Origin: an uncultured Pelagibacteraceae bacterium
Lineage (GTDB): Bacteria; Pseudomonadota; Alphaproteobacteria; Pelagibacterales; Pelagibacteraceae
Length of the DNA stretch: 64,000 nt
Reading direction: 5' to 3'
Assembly: GCA_902635335.1 (NCBI GenBank)
Contig: CACPNO010000001.1
Coordinates: forward strand, 1-64,000
Within the stretch, counting starts at the first letter, position 1, and every line of letters starts with the position of its first letter. Shown here piece after piece: positions 15,362-38,019 of the stretch. Made by a program: the position numbers and the translations under genes. The notes beneath the pieces are model-generated. The model worked only from the letters and a program-made list of their open reading frames with translations, had not been told where the DNA came from and did not search any database.

Positions 15362-16489
15362 ATGGCAAAAAGAGATTACTACGATGTCTTAGGTGTTGAA
15401 AAAAGTGCTAGCCCAGATCAAATAAAAGCAGCTTACAGAAAACAAGCAGTCAAATATCATCCTGATAAAAATAAAGGCGACAAAGGAGCTGAGGAAAAAT
15501 TTAAAGAAGCTTCTGAAGCATATCACGTTTTGTCAAACTCAGAGAGAAAACAAAATTATGACAATTTTGGACATGCAGCTTTTGAAAATGGTGGAGGTGG
15601 CAGAGGAGGTTTTGGAAACTTTGATTTTTCTGGCTCTTTCTCAGATATTTTTGAGGACTTTTTTGGAGAAGGTTTTGGTGGAGGTGGAAGAAGATCAAGA
15701 AGATCCAATAATAGAGGATCAGATTTAAGATACGATCTTTCAATAAGTCTTGAGGATGCTTACACTGGAAAAAAACAAGATATTAAATTTTCAACATCTG
15801 AAAGATGTGATACATGCAGCGGTTCAGGATCAAAACCAGGCCATAGTGCAAGTTCCTGTTCAATGTGTGGCGGTCATGGACAAGTACGATCAAGTCAGGG
15901 TTTTTTTACAGTTCAACAAACATGTCCTCAATGTGCCGGTTCTGGTGAAGAAATTACTGATCCATGTACAAGTTGTGGAGGGCAAGGCAAAAAACAAGCT
16001 AGTAAAAGACTTTCTGTAACTATTCCTAAAGGAGTTGATGATGGTACAAGAATTAGATTATCTGGCAAAGGAGAAGCTGGATCAAGAGGAGCAAGTAATG
16101 GTGATCTTTATTTATTTATAAATGTTGAATCACATGAACTTTTTAAAAGATCAGAAGTGAATTTATTTTTTGAATTCCCGATTTCATTTACAGATGCAGC
16201 ACTTGGAACAACGATTGAGATACCTACAATAGATGGAGGTAAAGCAAAAATAAAAATTCCAGACGGAACACAAAGTGGAAAACAATTTAGATTGAAAGGC
16301 AAAGGAATGCCATTTATGAGAAGAGGAGACTATGGAGATTTATACGTTCAAGTTAACACTGAAGTACCAGTATCCTTAAACAAAGAACAAAAAGAATTAC
16401 TTGAAAAATTTAGAAAAATTGAAAATGATCGATCAAATCCAAGTATAAAAAAGTTTTTTCAAAAAGCTAAAAATTTCTGGAAAAATTAA
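15362..16489 (+). CDS. dnaJ: Co-chaperone DnaJ (Hsp40)
   Basis: DnaJ delivers clients to DnaK and stimulates its ATPase. The 375-residue protein has all the class A parts. The J domain at residues 1-70 has the HPD triad in YHPDKNKG, and a glycine/phenylalanine-rich linker runs about 78-120. Four zinc-finger repeats follow (CDTCSGSG, CSMCGGHG, CPQCAGSG, CTSCGGQG), then the C-terminal substrate domains (IPKGVDDGTRIRLSGKG). It follows dnaK by 28 bases. Its stop codon is followed with no gap by the ATG of a tiny membrane-peptide gene. Confidence 0.98.
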   Translation: MAKRDYYDVLGVEKSASPDQIKAAYRKQAVKYHPDKNKGDKGAEEKFKEASEAYHVLSNSERKQNYDNFGHAAFENGGGGRGGFGNFDFSGSFSDIFEDFFGEGFGGGGRRSRRSNNRGSDLRYDLSISLEDAYTGKKQDIKFSTSERCDTCSGSGSKPGHSASSCSMCGGHGQVRSSQGFFTVQQTCPQCAGSGEEITDPCTSCGGQGKKQASKRLSVTIPKGVDDGTRIRLSGKGEAGSRGASNGDLYLFINVESHELFKRSEVNLFFEFPISFTDAALGTTIEIPTIDGGKAKIKIPDGTQSGKQFRLKGKGMPFMRRGDYGDLYVQVNTEVPVSLNKEQKELLEKFRKIENDRSNPSIKKFFQKAKNFWKN

Positions 16490-16634: not shown

Positions 16635-17366
16635 TTAATCTCTTGCCATTTTAATAAAAATATCACCCATACCACCTTGAACCTGTTCTAGTGGTGCATT
16701 ATTTCTTAATTGACAATAAGCTCCAGTGTACTCATCTTTATCAATAGCCGCAATACTCTGTTCATTACATTTTGATGAATTATGTAATAGACCAATAACA
16801 AGTCTATTATCTATTGAAACAACTTGATTATTGTCAAGAACTTCACCATTGCAGAAATAATTTCTATTTACTTCTCGAGGAAAATCTTTTTTTCTACAAG
16901 GGTTTTTAATAGTTAAAACAGTAAATTCTTTTTCTCCATCTGAGAATTTATGTTTCATATTTTTAACTTGAGAATATTTCATTAAATCACATGAGCATGG
17001 AAAACAGCATTTATGATAAAAACCGCAAATTTTTTCTCCATTTTCTGAACTTTTTAAATAGACAAAATCTGGTCTACTGTTTGGAGATATTAATGAACCA
17101 GAGACCGCACAGTATAGTTTATTATATTCTATAAAATCTTGATAAGTGATTTCTTTATCCAAAATATGTTTGAAAAATTTCGGCCCGGCAGCATTCCTAT
17201 TTTGATCAGGAAAGATTTTGATCCAATCTTTTACAAGGTCCTCATAGTAATTAAAGTCTTTTGAGTACGTAGGTTTTATAAAACAAAAAAAAGTTATTAA
17301 TAAACATATAAACAATGTTTTTTTAAGGCCAATTTTTTTAAAAAATATGTCGATTATTTCTCTCAT
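16635..17366 (-). CDS. Secreted cysteine-rich protein of unknown function
   Basis: I do not recognise this 243-residue protein. A hydrophobic segment at about residues 15-35 (KKTLFICLLITFFCFIKPTYS) looks like a signal peptide with an extended N-region. The mature part has ten cysteines, an even number, five of them clustered in KICGFYHKCCFPCSCDLMKYS near residues 113-133. That is consistent with disulfide bonds in the periplasm or outside the cell, or with metal binding. The rest is rich in charged residues. It starts 1 base after the stop of the ASPIC/UnbV gene on the same strand, so the two proteins are almost certainly made together. Confidence 0.75.
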   Translation of the reverse strand: MREIIDIFFKKIGLKKTLFICLLITFFCFIKPTYSKDFNYYEDLVKDWIKIFPDQNRNAAGPKFFKHILDKEITYQDFIEYNKLYCAVSGSLISPNSRPDFVYLKSSENGEKICGFYHKCCFPCSCDLMKYSQVKNMKHKFSDGEKEFTVLTIKNPCRKKDFPREVNRNYFCNGEVLDNNQVVSIDNRLVIGLLHNSSKCNEQSIAAIDKDEYTGAYCQLRNNAPLEQVQGGMGDIFIKMARD

Positions 17367-17367
17367 A

Positions 17368-18804
17368 TTATTTTTGTTTTATTTCTATTGTTTTATTAAA
17401 TTCATTTATATTAAATGTCTCTAATAATCCATTTGTCCAAACAACATCTATAGATATATTTTTTTCACCTTCTCTTATACCGTAGTGAGCTACAGGCTCC
17501 ATTTGACATAAATACCCTGAGCCAGCATCTATAGTTTTAGCATGTTTTCTCAAATTAGAATTTAATATTACAGTTGCTCCTCTAGCAGGAGCCCCAAATT
17601 TATTTAATGGTTTAATCCTCAAATAATTAAAATCTTTTTTAATATCAGCTTTGTACATCGTTAATGGTTGCATTCCAGACTCACCGTGAGCAATCAACAA
17701 TTCTAAAATTCCATCATCATCTATATCTGCAACTGCTGCACCTGTTCCAAGACCATTTACTTCATAAGCATTTTTAATATTAATTTCTTCAAAAAATCCA
17801 TTTTCTTTTATTTTGAATAGTTTATTTGGTTCACCGATGTTATTCATAAATATCTCATCGTAACCATCATTATCAAAGTCTGCTGATATTACAGTTCTAA
17901 TTCTAGTTGGGATATTGTAAGTTGGAGTTGCAATATCTCTAAATTTGTTGTCTTCTAAAACAAAGACCCTATGATAGCCATTCCAATTAGACGTAACTAT
18001 ATCTAATCTTCCTCTATAAAATATATCAGTTAAAGTTGTACCTCTTCCATTTTCATATTGATCGTCCACTTTATAATCTTCGGCAATGTCCTGAAAATAT
18101 CCATCAGAGTTATAATATAAAAAGTTTTTACCTCTCTCATTTGCAGCAAAAATGTCAGTTTTTCCAGATAAAATATTTCCTGCAACCACTGCTCTTCCAC
18201 CAGTTATTTTATTGATTTTAAGCTGTTCTGCTAAATCTAAAATTTGTCCAGCACGCAGTTCATAAAATCTAGTAGGACCTCCATAATTAGCAACATATAT
18301 GCCATATTTTCCATCACCATTTCTATCAACACAAACTACTGATCTGCCAGCAGTTAAATTCAAGTTTTTTTTATTGATCTCTTTTTCAAACAAATCTACA
18401 AAACCGTTGCCACTATTATCAATCAATCTATCTGAATATTTTTTCTCTCCACTATATGTGTCTGTGTTTAAAAAATAAATTTCTTCAAAACCATCTTGAT
18501 CTATATCACACGCAGCTACACCAATTGTTTTTCTTTTAACATCATCAAAAATTTTATTTTTATTAATGTTTACCATTTTACCATTTTGGTATGTAAGTGA
18601 TAAATTTGAAAATCCAAATCCAGTAACCACAAATTCATATTTGTTGTCTTGGTTTACATCTGTTACGGAAATACCATAACTAAGTCTAAAGTCATTATCA
18701 TCAATTTGAGATGTAATATCTTTAAAAAAGTCTGCTTTAGAAACATTGTGAGACACAAAAAAAAATAAAACCAGAAAAAATTTTAATGGGTATTTAATAG
18801 CCAT
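17368..18804 (-). CDS. Secreted FG-GAP/VCBS-repeat protein with ASPIC/UnbV domain
   Basis: The 478-residue protein has a signal peptide (MAIKYPLKFFLVLFFFVSHN, cleavage probably after KA near residue 24). A series of beta-propeller repeats follows with calcium-loop motifs of the D-x-D-x-D-G type: DVNQDNKYEFV, DIDQDGFEEIYF, DRNGDGKYGIYV, DFDNDGYDEIFM, DIDDDGILELLI. The last 90 residues match the ASPIC/UnbV domain (APARGATVILNSNLRKHAKT, GSGYLCQMEPVAHYGIRE). Such CRTAC1-like proteins are exported and their roles in bacteria are mostly unknown. It forms a two-gene operon with the cysteine-rich protein downstream and is divergent from dapB. Confidence 0.85.
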   Translation of the reverse strand: MAIKYPLKFFLVLFFFVSHNVSKADFFKDITSQIDDNDFRLSYGISVTDVNQDNKYEFVVTGFGFSNLSLTYQNGKMVNINKNKIFDDVKRKTIGVAACDIDQDGFEEIYFLNTDTYSGEKKYSDRLIDNSGNGFVDLFEKEINKKNLNLTAGRSVVCVDRNGDGKYGIYVANYGGPTRFYELRAGQILDLAEQLKINKITGGRAVVAGNILSGKTDIFAANERGKNFLYYNSDGYFQDIAEDYKVDDQYENGRGTTLTDIFYRGRLDIVTSNWNGYHRVFVLEDNKFRDIATPTYNIPTRIRTVISADFDNDGYDEIFMNNIGEPNKLFKIKENGFFEEINIKNAYEVNGLGTGAAVADIDDDGILELLIAHGESGMQPLTMYKADIKKDFNYLRIKPLNKFGAPARGATVILNSNLRKHAKTIDAGSGYLCQMEPVAHYGIREGEKNISIDVVWTNGLLETFNINEFNKTIEIKQK

Positions 18805-18845: not shown

Positions 18846-19622
18846 ATGAGCAAAGTAAAATTAGCGATATCTGGTTGCATGGGACGAATGGGCCAACAAC
18901 TAGTAAAATCTTCTATAGCAGATAAAAATTTTCAATTAACAACACTTACAGAAAATAGATTAATAAAAAAAAAAATTGCAGGGATAAAGCCTAGTTTAAA
19001 TAATGAAAATTCTTTTAAAAATGTTGATTTAATTATCGATTTCACAATCCCTGAATGTACTTTTGAAATTCTTAAAATTGCTTCAAAGCTAAAAAAAAGG
19101 GTTGTTATTGGCACTACTGGATTTACTAAAAAAGAGGAGAATTTAATTAAAAAATTTTCAAAGAAAGTCCCAATATTAAAAGCTGGAAACATGAGTTTAG
19201 GTATAAATTTATTAATGTATTTGACTGAAATAGCCTCAAAATCTTTAGGAAATAATTTTTTAAGTAAAGTTTACGAAGTTCATCATAAACATAAGATAGA
19301 TCATCCCTCTGGAACTGCACTAATGTTAGGTAAAGGAATAGCAGTTGGTAAAAATAAAGATTTTTATAATTTAATTGGAAAAAAATTTTTGAATAAAAAA
19401 AATTTTCCCTATGGGAAAAAAATTAATTTTAACTCAATTCGTAAAGGTAAAACTGTAGGTGAACACGAAGTAAAGTTTTCTAGTGGCAAGGAAATTATTA
19501 CATTAAATCATGAGGCTTTTGATAGGGCTTTATACAGTGAAGGAGCTTTGACAGCTGGAAAATGGTTAATGAAAAAAAAACCAGGTTTATATACGATGCG
19601 CGATGTTTTAAATTTTAAATGA
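18846..19622 (+). CDS. dapB: 4-hydroxy-tetrahydrodipicolinate reductase
   Basis: DapB catalyses the NAD(P)H-dependent step in lysine and diaminopimelate synthesis, so it serves both protein and cell-wall synthesis. The 258-residue protein has the nucleotide-binding GCMGRMGQQLVKSS at residues 10-23, VVIGTTGFTKKE near 88-99, and the catalytic EVHHKHKIDHPSGTALML near 142-159. Its stop overlaps the nth start by 4 bases (ATGA). Length and motifs are ordinary. Confidence 0.95.
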   Translation: MSKVKLAISGCMGRMGQQLVKSSIADKNFQLTTLTENRLIKKKIAGIKPSLNNENSFKNVDLIIDFTIPECTFEILKIASKLKKRVVIGTTGFTKKEENLIKKFSKKVPILKAGNMSLGINLLMYLTEIASKSLGNNFLSKVYEVHHKHKIDHPSGTALMLGKGIAVGKNKDFYNLIGKKFLNKKNFPYGKKINFNSIRKGKTVGEHEVKFSSGKEIITLNHEAFDRALYSEGALTAGKWLMKKKPGLYTMRDVLNFK

Positions 19623-34903: not shown

Positions 34904-34950
34904 AACAATTATTATAGTTTTATATTGTCCAAAATTATATAATTTTATTG

Positions 34951-35814
34951 ATGATAATTTGGTTAGCATCTTATCCTAAAAGTGGAAACACTTGGCTAAG
35001 ATTTTTTATAGTTTCTCTTCTTTTAAAAGAAAATAACGAAGTAAGCTTAAAAAACTTAGAAAGCATTAAACAATTTCCTACAAACTATCATTACAGAGAT
35101 TTTAGTATTTCTAAACCTGATCTTGGAAATCTTAATAAAATTTCTAAATATTGGGTGAGCGCTCAAAAAAAAATTAATTCTGATAATAAAATTAGATTTT
35201 TCAAAACACACAATGCTCTTTGTAAGTTGGACAATAATATTTTTACTAATGAAGAGAATACTCTAGGTACAATTCATATTGTGAGAGATCCAAGAAATGT
35301 TATTTCATCAGTAAATAATCATTTTCATCATGAGAGCCTTGAGGAGTCTAAAAAATTTATTCTTGATGAGAGAAAAGGAATATTCAATAAATCTAAAATT
35401 GAGCACAATAATATTTTTACGCTTCCCCAGGTTATAGGCTCATGGAAAACACATTATAATTCATGGAAACTAATAAGAAAAAATTATATTCTAGTTAAAT
35501 ATGAGGATTTAATAGAAAAACCAGAATTGGAATTTAAAAGAATTGCTCGTTATTTAGAACCTTTAATAAAATTAAAATTTACTGATGAGAATATTTCAAA
35601 AGCAATAGAATTAAGCAGTTTTGATAGACTTAAAAAAATTGAGGAAAAAGAGGGATTTGTTGAGAGTGTTAGAAATTTAAAAACTGGAAAAAAGGAAACT
35701 TTTTTTAATCTTGGACCAAAAAATGATTGGAAAAAAATTTTAGATAAAAATATTATAAAGGAAGTTAATAAAAAATTCGAACTAGAGATGAAGGAATTAG
35801 GTTATCTTAAATAA
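34951..35814 (+). CDS. Sulfotransferase, first of a tandem pair
   Basis: The 287-residue protein transfers sulfate, presumably from PAPS, to an unknown acceptor. The PAPS 5'-phosphosulfate loop is at the N-terminus (WLASYPKSGNTWLRFFIVS), and the 3'-phosphate loop is IHIVRDPRNVISSVNNH near residue 108. I use the ATG at 34951 rather than a TTG three bases before. No signal peptide is visible, so it is cytosolic or associated with the membrane inner face. The next gene is a paralogue of the same length. It interrupts the otherwise conserved interval between mnmE and rho, which suggests a gained gene. Confidence 0.88.
   Translation: MIIWLASYPKSGNTWLRFFIVSLLLKENNEVSLKNLESIKQFPTNYHYRDFSISKPDLGNLNKISKYWVSAQKKINSDNKIRFFKTHNALCKLDNNIFTNEENTLGTIHIVRDPRNVISSVNNHFHHESLEESKKFILDERKGIFNKSKIEHNNIFTLPQVIGSWKTHYNSWKLIRKNYILVKYEDLIEKPELEFKRIARYLEPLIKLKFTDENISKAIELSSFDRLKKIEEKEGFVESVRNLKTGKKETFFNLGPKNDWKKILDKNIIKEVNKKFELEMKELGYLK
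35710..35759 (+). repeat. 50-bp direct repeat, copy 1 (3' end of first sulfotransferase gene)
   Basis: This stretch matches 36642-36691 at 49 of 50 bases, although the two genes differ much more elsewhere. It encodes LGPKN(D/N)WKKILDKNII. The local near-identity suggests a recent duplication or gene conversion. Confidence 0.85.
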
Positions 35815-35879
35815 ATTAAATATCTAATCTGTTTGAATATAGTAAAAAATTATTTAAATAAGTTAGTGGAGCTCCTTTT

Positions 35880-36746
35880 ATGATCATTTGGTTATCTTCT
35901 TACCCCAAAAGTGGAAACACTTGGCTGAGATTTTTTATCATTTCTTTATTGATGGGTAAGAAAACTAAGTTAAATTTAAATCATCTTAAGGCTATAAATA
36001 CATACCCCCATGTAGATCAATTCAAAGATTTAATATCTAATTTTTTAGACCTTGGTGAAGTTGCAAAAAATTGGATCACTTCGCAAGAGAAAGTTAATTC
36101 AGATAAAGCATTGAGGTTTTTTAAAACACATAATATGCTTGGAAACTTAAATGGGTATCCTTTTACAAATAGTCAAAATACACTTGGCACTATCCACATA
36201 GTTAGAGATCCAAGGAATGTTGTTACATCTGTTAAAAATCATTACAATTTTTCAACTTTTGATAATGCACTAAAATTTATTTCTAATGAAAAACAAATTT
36301 TGACTTTGTCTGATGAAGAAAAAAAAAAATACAGGGAAAAAGAGATTAGGTATCCACTTCCTCAAATAATTGGATCCTGGGGATCACACTATAAATCATG
36401 GAAAAGAATGAAAACAAATTATCTTTTAGTAAAATATGAAGATCTTGTTGATAAACCAAACGAAGAATTTGCTAGGATTGCAATCTTTATTGAAAGTTTA
36501 ATTAAAGTAAATTTTAGTAATGACCAAATCAGCACTGCAATCGAATTAAGCTCATTTAATAAGTTAGAAAATATGGAGAAAAGGTATGGGTTTATTGAAA
36601 GTTCATTAAATAAAAAAGGTGAAAAAAATAAATTTTTTTATCTTGGACCAAAAAATAATTGGAAAAAAATTTTAGATAAAAATATTATAAAAGAAATTGA
36701 TAAAAAATTTAAATTAGAGATGAGAGAATTAGGTTATTTAAAATAA
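35880..36746 (+). CDS. Sulfotransferase, second of a tandem pair
   Basis: The 288-residue paralogue of the preceding gene has the same PAPS motifs: WLSSYPKSGNTWLRFFIISL at the start and IHIVRDPRNVVTSVKNH. It also has the conserved LPQIIGSWGSHYKSWKRM and YLLVKYEDLVDKP segments. The two proteins are near-identical at both ends and diverge in the middle, near residues 30-70 and 125-145, the part likely to choose the acceptor. It ends one base before the rho stop on the other strand, with no spacer. The acceptor molecule is unknown. Confidence 0.88.
   Translation: MIIWLSSYPKSGNTWLRFFIISLLMGKKTKLNLNHLKAINTYPHVDQFKDLISNFLDLGEVAKNWITSQEKVNSDKALRFFKTHNMLGNLNGYPFTNSQNTLGTIHIVRDPRNVVTSVKNHYNFSTFDNALKFISNEKQILTLSDEEKKKYREKEIRYPLPQIIGSWGSHYKSWKRMKTNYLLVKYEDLVDKPNEEFARIAIFIESLIKVNFSNDQISTAIELSSFNKLENMEKRYGFIESSLNKKGEKNKFFYLGPKNNWKKILDKNIIKEIDKKFKLEMRELGYLK
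36642..36691 (+). repeat. 50-bp direct repeat, copy 2 (3' end of second sulfotransferase gene)
   Basis: This is the partner of 35710-35759, differing at one base. See that entry. Confidence 0.85.
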
Positions 36747-38019
36747 CTATGAAGGTTTATTCATTGAATTAAAAAATTCTGCGTTATTTTTAGTTGTCTT
36801 TAATTTAGAATTTATGAAGTCAATTGCATCCATAGATCCCATTGGGGCAATTATTCTTCTTAAAACATTCATTTTTTGTAGGTCGTTTTTGTCAAAAATT
36901 AGCTCTTCTCTTCTTGTTCCTGATTTAGTTATATCTATTGCTGGATAAATCCTCTTTTCAGAAATCTTTCTATCTAAAATAGTCTCACTGTTTCCAGTTC
37001 CTTTAAATTCCTCAAAGATAACTTCATCCATTCTACTTCCTGTATCAATTAAAGCTGTAGCAATAATAGTTAAAGAACCTCCTTCTTCAATGTTTCTTGC
37101 TGCGCCAAAAAATCTTTTGGGTCTTTGAAGAGCATTAGCATCTACACCACCAGTTAAAACTTTTCCTGAACTTGGTACAACAGCATTATAAGCTCTTCCT
37201 AATCTAGTGATTGAGTCTAATAAGATTACAACATCTTTTTTATGTTCTGTTAATCTTTTTGCTTTTTCTATAACCATTTCAGCAACAGCCACATGTCTTT
37301 GAGCAGGTTCATCAAAAGTAGAACTTATAACTTCACCTTTAACTGTTCTTTGCATATCGGTTACTTCCTCAGGTCTTTCATCTATAAGTAATACCATTAA
37401 ATAACATTCTGGATGATTGGCAGTTATAGAATTTGCTATACTTTGGAGTATCATGGTTTTTTCCAGCTTTGGGAGGTGATATAATCAAAGACCTTTGGCC
37501 TTTACCAATAGGACTAACTAAGTCAATTAGTCTTGGGGTTAAATCAGGTTTTTTTTCAATTTTATTTATTTCTACTTCCATTGCTAACTGTTTATTTGGA
37601 TATAAGGGTGTAAGGTTATCAAAAGCAATCTTATGCTTAAATTTATCGGGTTCTTCAAAGTTTATTTTGCTTACTTGAAGTAATGCAAAATATCTTTCTC
37701 CTTCTTTTGGAGATCTAATAGGACCTTCTACTGAATCACCAGTTCTTAAACCAAATCTTCTTATTTGACTTGGGCTTACATATATATCATCTGCTCCAGG
37801 TAAATAATTTGATTCCATTGCTCTAAGAAAGCCAAAACCATCTTGAAGGAGTTGTAAAACTCCACCACCAGTTATCTCTTCACCTTTTTCTGCAAGTTTT
37901 TTTAAAATAGCAAAATAAATTTCTTGCCGTCTTAATGTGCTAGCGTTTTCTATGCCAAGCTTTTCAGCATCAGTGATTAGCTTTTCAGAGCTTGTTTCTT
38001 TTAATTCTTGAATATTCAT
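36747..38019 (-). CDS. rho: Transcription terminator Rho, interrupted by a one-base frameshift in the P-loop
   Basis: Rho is the hexameric RNA helicase that ends transcription. Two overlapping frames cover it. Residues 1-187 ([15 protein letters not shown] to PPKAGK) hold the RNA-binding domain with [23 protein letters not shown] second frame from 37454 ([16 protein letters not shown] to the C-terminus) holds the ATPase core, with [15 protein letters not shown] and SKVLTGG-type segments ([17 protein letters not shown]). The break is at a run of six A (37457-37462, coding strand GG-A6-CC). With five A, PKAGKTMILQ is restored and a normal 423-residue Rho results. As written, the Walker A threonine and everything after it are lost. 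A sequencing or assembly error, transcript slippage or a real mutation are all possible. Confidence 0.9.

Follow-up and report, generated by a model that had tools for sequence, protein, structure and literature searches.

SAR11 bacteria are the most abundant bacteria of the ocean and keep few genes per cell, and the locus described here raises the question of what two adjacent and apparently exported proteins may do together in such a cell. It lies in a window of 64,000 nucleotides (the whole stretch of DNA analysed) from a SAR11 (Pelagibacteraceae) genome, and the closest loci, with identity up to 97%, come from single-cell genomes. No paper on this gene pair was found in the open-access literature.

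The locus and its two genes

The features of the pair, with the evidence for each, are as follows.

17368..18804, minus strand: propeller gene, CRTAC1-like, with FG-GAP repeats and UnbV_ASPIC domain, 478 aa (ORF, Pfam, homology to 9ETN_A)
18733..18804, minus strand: signal-like N-terminus of the propeller protein, residues 1-24, cleavage likely after SKA (inspection and homologues)
17386..17586, minus strand: UnbV_ASPIC domain, residues 407-473 (39.8 / 35.6 bits, cut-off 23.4)
16635..17366, minus strand: gene of the ten-cysteine partner, 243 aa, without known family (ORF; no profile or structure match)
17262..17366, minus strand: signal-like N-terminus of the cysteine protein, residues 1-35 (inspection and homologue alignment)
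16989..17027, minus strand: cysteine cluster C-x5-CC-x2-C-x-C, residues 114-126 (invariant in 65/65 homologues)

The first-pass annotation had described two genes 1 base apart, signal peptides on both products, calcium-loop FG-GAP repeats with an ASPIC/UnbV domain in one and ten cysteines with a tight cluster in the other, and each of these points is borne out. The two genes are codirectional with a 1-bp gap, the propeller gene being the upstream member, and the pair is flanked by dnaJ (15362-16489, plus strand) and dapB (18846-19622, plus strand), both on the strand opposite to it. Signal peptides were called by eye (basic, hydrophobic, AxA-like); the N-terminal sequences of homologues differ, and the signal-like layout is kept in both proteins, again by eye. 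Export of both proteins by Sec may be inferred from these N-termini. Between relatives, dN/dS is 0.02-0.22 for the propeller gene and the cysteine gene alike, and therefore both are under purifying selection.

The propeller protein matches FG-GAP_3 (1.7e-23), FG-GAP (7e-11) and UnbV_ASPIC (8.6e-9, above the curated cut-off) in Pfam. Five FG-GAP_3 and four FG-GAP stretches precede the ASPIC domain, and loops of the DxDxDG type are present. Residues 33-475 are homologous to human CRTAC1 (PDB code: 9ETN_A; E=9e-102), with an identity of about 45% as measured on L029, a close relative of the protein in the window.

The 243-aa precursor of the partner contains 12 cysteines, of which the signal-like N-terminus accounts for two and the mature part for ten. 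The cluster has the spacing C114-x5-C120-C121-x2-C124-x-C126, and each of the 65 homologues compared, over two orders, keeps all ten mature cysteines; these cysteines probably form disulfides, likely five, judging from sequence. Overall, 53 residues are invariant in these homologues, including parts of the NRNAAGP, C-x-VSGS and GMGDIFI segments, and no histidine is strictly invariant in the same comparison. Searches of Pfam, NCBIfam, PHROGs and PDB sequences gave no credible match, either with the single sequence or with a profile. Weak Pfam matches to zf_DPOE_2 and ETRAMP occurred in only one or two members and were taken as chance. AlphaFold models built from 19 and 50 sequences had mean pLDDT values of 85.6 and 87.8 and near-identical secondary structure. 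Since Foldseek gave no match at E<=0.001, either in the PDB, where both models were compared, or among viral models, the predicted fold may be new, as judged against these two collections only. The gene was not found in viral contigs and phages.

Elsewhere in the window, the rho termination factor (36747-38019, minus strand) is split into two overlapping ORFs, 213 and 235 aa long, whose frames differ; the break, near 37378-37454, reflects either a frameshift or a sequencing error. At 34948-36746 (plus strand) there are two tandem paralogous ORFs of 288 aa, sulfotransferase-like in appearance.

Co-occurrence and adjacency across genomes

Two sets of genomes were compared: 147 of the SAR11 family and 110 of another alphaproteobacterial order, the latter mostly 1.1-1.6 Mb in size. 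In the SAR11 family the cysteine gene is present in 27/147 and the propeller gene in 28/147, and the same 27 genomes hold both; G106 was rejected as a propeller-only genome, its locus running into a contig end. The corresponding counts in the second order are 75/110 and 74/110, with the same 74 genomes holding both, and the only single is G1053, which has the cysteine gene alone, 320 bases from the contig start. Save for this one, homologues of the cysteine gene occur only beside a CRTAC1-like gene. Fisher's test, which ignores phylogeny, gave p<1e-27 for co-occurrence in each set. A second SAR11 family, f88, carries the pair too, and about 40-50% of the near-complete SAR11 genomes sampled keep it (20/53; 49/105). 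In a profile search of 399 Pseudomonadota, the cysteine gene was found in the window's own genome alone.

The arrangement of the genes was compared in 65 pairs in which both are near full length. Adjacency is held through REARRANGEMENT, that is, in all four relative arrangements and at about 11 chromosomal sites: the propeller gene precedes the cysteine gene on the same strand in 26 pairs and follows it in 10, while 16 pairs are convergent and 13 divergent. The intergenic gap ranges from -17 to 558 bp; the widest holds a fasciclin-domain gene on the opposite strand (L142:7866-8339), and even there the pair stays together. On the propeller tree, where the pair-bearing proteins form a clade of their own (support 100/100), six labels (four arrangements, unpaired homologues and human) need six changes. 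Protein distances of the two members correlate in a mirror-tree comparison (r=0.93), to which shared descent contributes. No fusion of the two families was observed.

The two-gene observation is not due to chance. Since the two genes are always inherited as a pair, whichever of the four arrangements they have, they are probably one working unit, and adjacency through every arrangement is hard to explain other than by selection for co-inheritance or co-expression. Rare co-occurrence had been named at the outset as the observation that would speak against a joint function; what was found is near-perfect co-occurrence in two orders, which strongly supports a joint function when taken together with the adjacency. 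Therefore, the propeller and cysteine proteins are almost certainly an obligate functional partnership. That they also form a physical complex is somewhat more probable than that they do not.

Loci L049 and L053 share one contig (CABYFX010000017.1), on which the cysteine gene occurs twice in mirror image; this is probably a chimera that arose in the amplification of a single-cell genome.

Neighbouring genes and competing explanations

In 37 of 60 pair-bearing genomes the surrounding 8 kb on either side of the pair include a photolyase-domain gene (PF03441), as against 2.0 expected from random placement, the classes of neighbouring genes having been picked after inspection of the data. Because the pair-bearing genomes are related, independent sites weigh more than the number of genomes. 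Photolyase genes (PF03441/PF04244) accompany the pair at sites B, C, F and H and in a subset of site A. In that subset (L035, L036, L037) the photolyase gene abuts the cysteine gene with zero gap, and at site H it overlaps it by 4 bp (L193, L194); site B has a DPRP + SDR cluster. MsrB is beside the pair at sites D, G and I, 3 bp upstream in L080 and L084, and within 8 kb in 4 of 39 genomes searched (G027, G545, G611, G641). Three of these genes (L195:8858-9490, L080:5539-5988 and L203:8375-8833) have signal-like N-termini, and they therefore appear to encode exported methionine sulfoxide reductases at three independent sites. CfaS and DUF1365 genes are found near the pair at site H, with an amine oxidase in addition in L197, fasciclin genes at sites B and K, DUF4174 at sites B and C, and a DCC1-like oxidoreductase at B.

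Overall, nine of the 11 sites have a neighbour of these regulon types in one genome or more. No neighbour of the light-repair type is present in the window, in most genomes of site A or at site E; site J has just a paralogous SDR, in a single genome, and most pairs of the second order are likewise without such a neighbour. The spot between the cysteine gene and dnaJ is variable, with a TPR and glycosyltransferase family 41 gene present there in three loci (L033:6736-8670, L041:6792-8750 and L073:1584-3530; the gene is annotated in L033). In family f213 (L235, L264-L271, L282), genes for DUF4396, TPR-like and DUF4149 proteins follow the pair on the same strand, and two SAR11 sites (L195, L203/L204) also have DUF4149-type genes close to the pair.

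From this neighbourhood, a role of the pair in defence of the envelope against photo-oxidative damage can be tentatively proposed, with a probability that falls a little short of even. Another explanation is that the pair is obligate and exported yet unrelated to light, and that it and the light-repair genes merely share flexible insertion spots. Both sets of genes would then often be gained and lost at the same spots in streamlined surface-ocean genomes. The pair itself is patchy over about 11 sites, site A also hosts the unrelated TPR/glycosyltransferase insert, and the bare neighbourhoods of most second-order pairs fit as well. Against this, the same gene classes recur by the pair at independent sites, down to the 4-bp overlap, the zero gap and the 3-bp spacing; sharing of spots as the sole cause is rather unlikely, although it carries more weight than the two explanations that follow.

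A surface complex for recognition or adhesion (ligand, receptor or phage-exposed), comparable to the extracellular CRTAC1 of vertebrates, would agree with the signal-like N-termini, the richness in cysteine, the propeller scaffold, the patchy distribution and the extracellular location of the animal protein. Low dN/dS and 53 invariant residues over two orders are nevertheless unlike a diversifying surface target, and neither an anchor motif nor an outer-membrane partner was seen, which makes this explanation improbable. Capture of metal, which the first-pass annotation had suggested, or of phosphate is more improbable still. In such a scheme the cysteine cluster would bind metal and the propeller would present it, as the cluster and the calcium-loop motifs might allow, but the invariant residues include no histidine, no genes for metal or phosphate uptake recur next to the pair, ten cysteines in an oxidising compartment fit disulfides, and neither family nor fold searches gave a match for metal binding. 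The suggestion is therefore unsupported.

Under the preferred reading of photo-oxidative defence, both proteins would cross the inner membrane via Sec. The CRTAC1-like protein, a metal-loop beta-propeller followed by the UnbV_ASPIC domain, would be a rigid scaffold, and the disulfide-bonded cysteine protein would dock on it or act on the same substrate, bearing a putative active or binding surface formed by the NRNxAGP, C-x-VSGS and GMGDIFI segments. Working beside photolyase, exported MsrB, CfaS and fasciclin, the pair may then shield the envelope from oxidation driven by light (singlet oxygen/UV) or repair it. This reading as a whole, an obligate exported pair for envelope photo-oxidative defence, is favoured with reserve and could well prove wrong. 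Its most specific form is doubtful: a new envelope system of two proteins in marine Alphaproteobacteria with small genomes, in which an exported CRTAC1 propeller and its obligate partner, a ten-cysteine protein of new fold, make up a complex for light-damage repair or singlet-oxygen protection.

Comparison with known systems

CRTAC1 (cartilage acidic protein 1; 9ETN) is extracellular in animals, and the SAR11 protein shares with it domain order, whole-length homology and, by its N-terminus, apparent export. Unlike the human chain, which reaches residue 586, the SAR11 protein stops at residue 478, just past the ASPIC domain; the C-terminal extension of vertebrate CRTAC1 is EGF-like. Alphaproteobacteria with larger genomes also have CRTAC1 homologues. 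Six of these, included in the tree, share 37-46% identity with the SAR11 protein and have no export signal by eye. The cysteine gene is absent from the flanks of these six, the region examined, whereas the SAR11 clade is tied to this second gene. Transfer from animals was considered and dropped, because ordinary alphaproteobacterial homologues (40-51%) are as near to human CRTAC1 as the SAR11 protein is (45%).

The already-known CRTAC1 family is thus joined by a new, obligate and unmatched partner, the first candidate partner for its bacterial members, and the cysteine protein represents a family without relatives in the libraries searched. Despite the gene economy of SAR11, the pair is among the clearer conserved partnerships without assigned function, and envelope protection from sunlight in streamlined surface-ocean bacteria is offered as a hypothesis for it.

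For this hypothesis the closest known system is the RpoE-ChrR response. According to the available excerpts of one paper, the RpoE singlet-oxygen regulon of R. sphaeroides includes phrA, cfaS, RSP_1090/1091, an SDR and a fasciclin protein, and Msr proteins are induced in the singlet-oxygen response of R. sphaeroides and R. capsulatus (PMC7074977). Excerpts of another give a DPRP + SDR pair, phrB and cfa in the predicted RpoE2-ChrR regulon of S. oneidensis (PMC4336711). The propeller and cysteine genes are not among the members described in these excerpts, and no gene for an RpoE/ChrR regulator or sigma factor was seen adjoining the pair, gene neighbourhood being the sole link. In that neighbourhood, the likeness to the Rhodobacter and Shewanella regulons, as far as the excerpts describe them, extends to photolyase, DPRP + SDR, CfaS, fasciclin and methionine sulfoxide reductase, all of which are neighbours of the pair.
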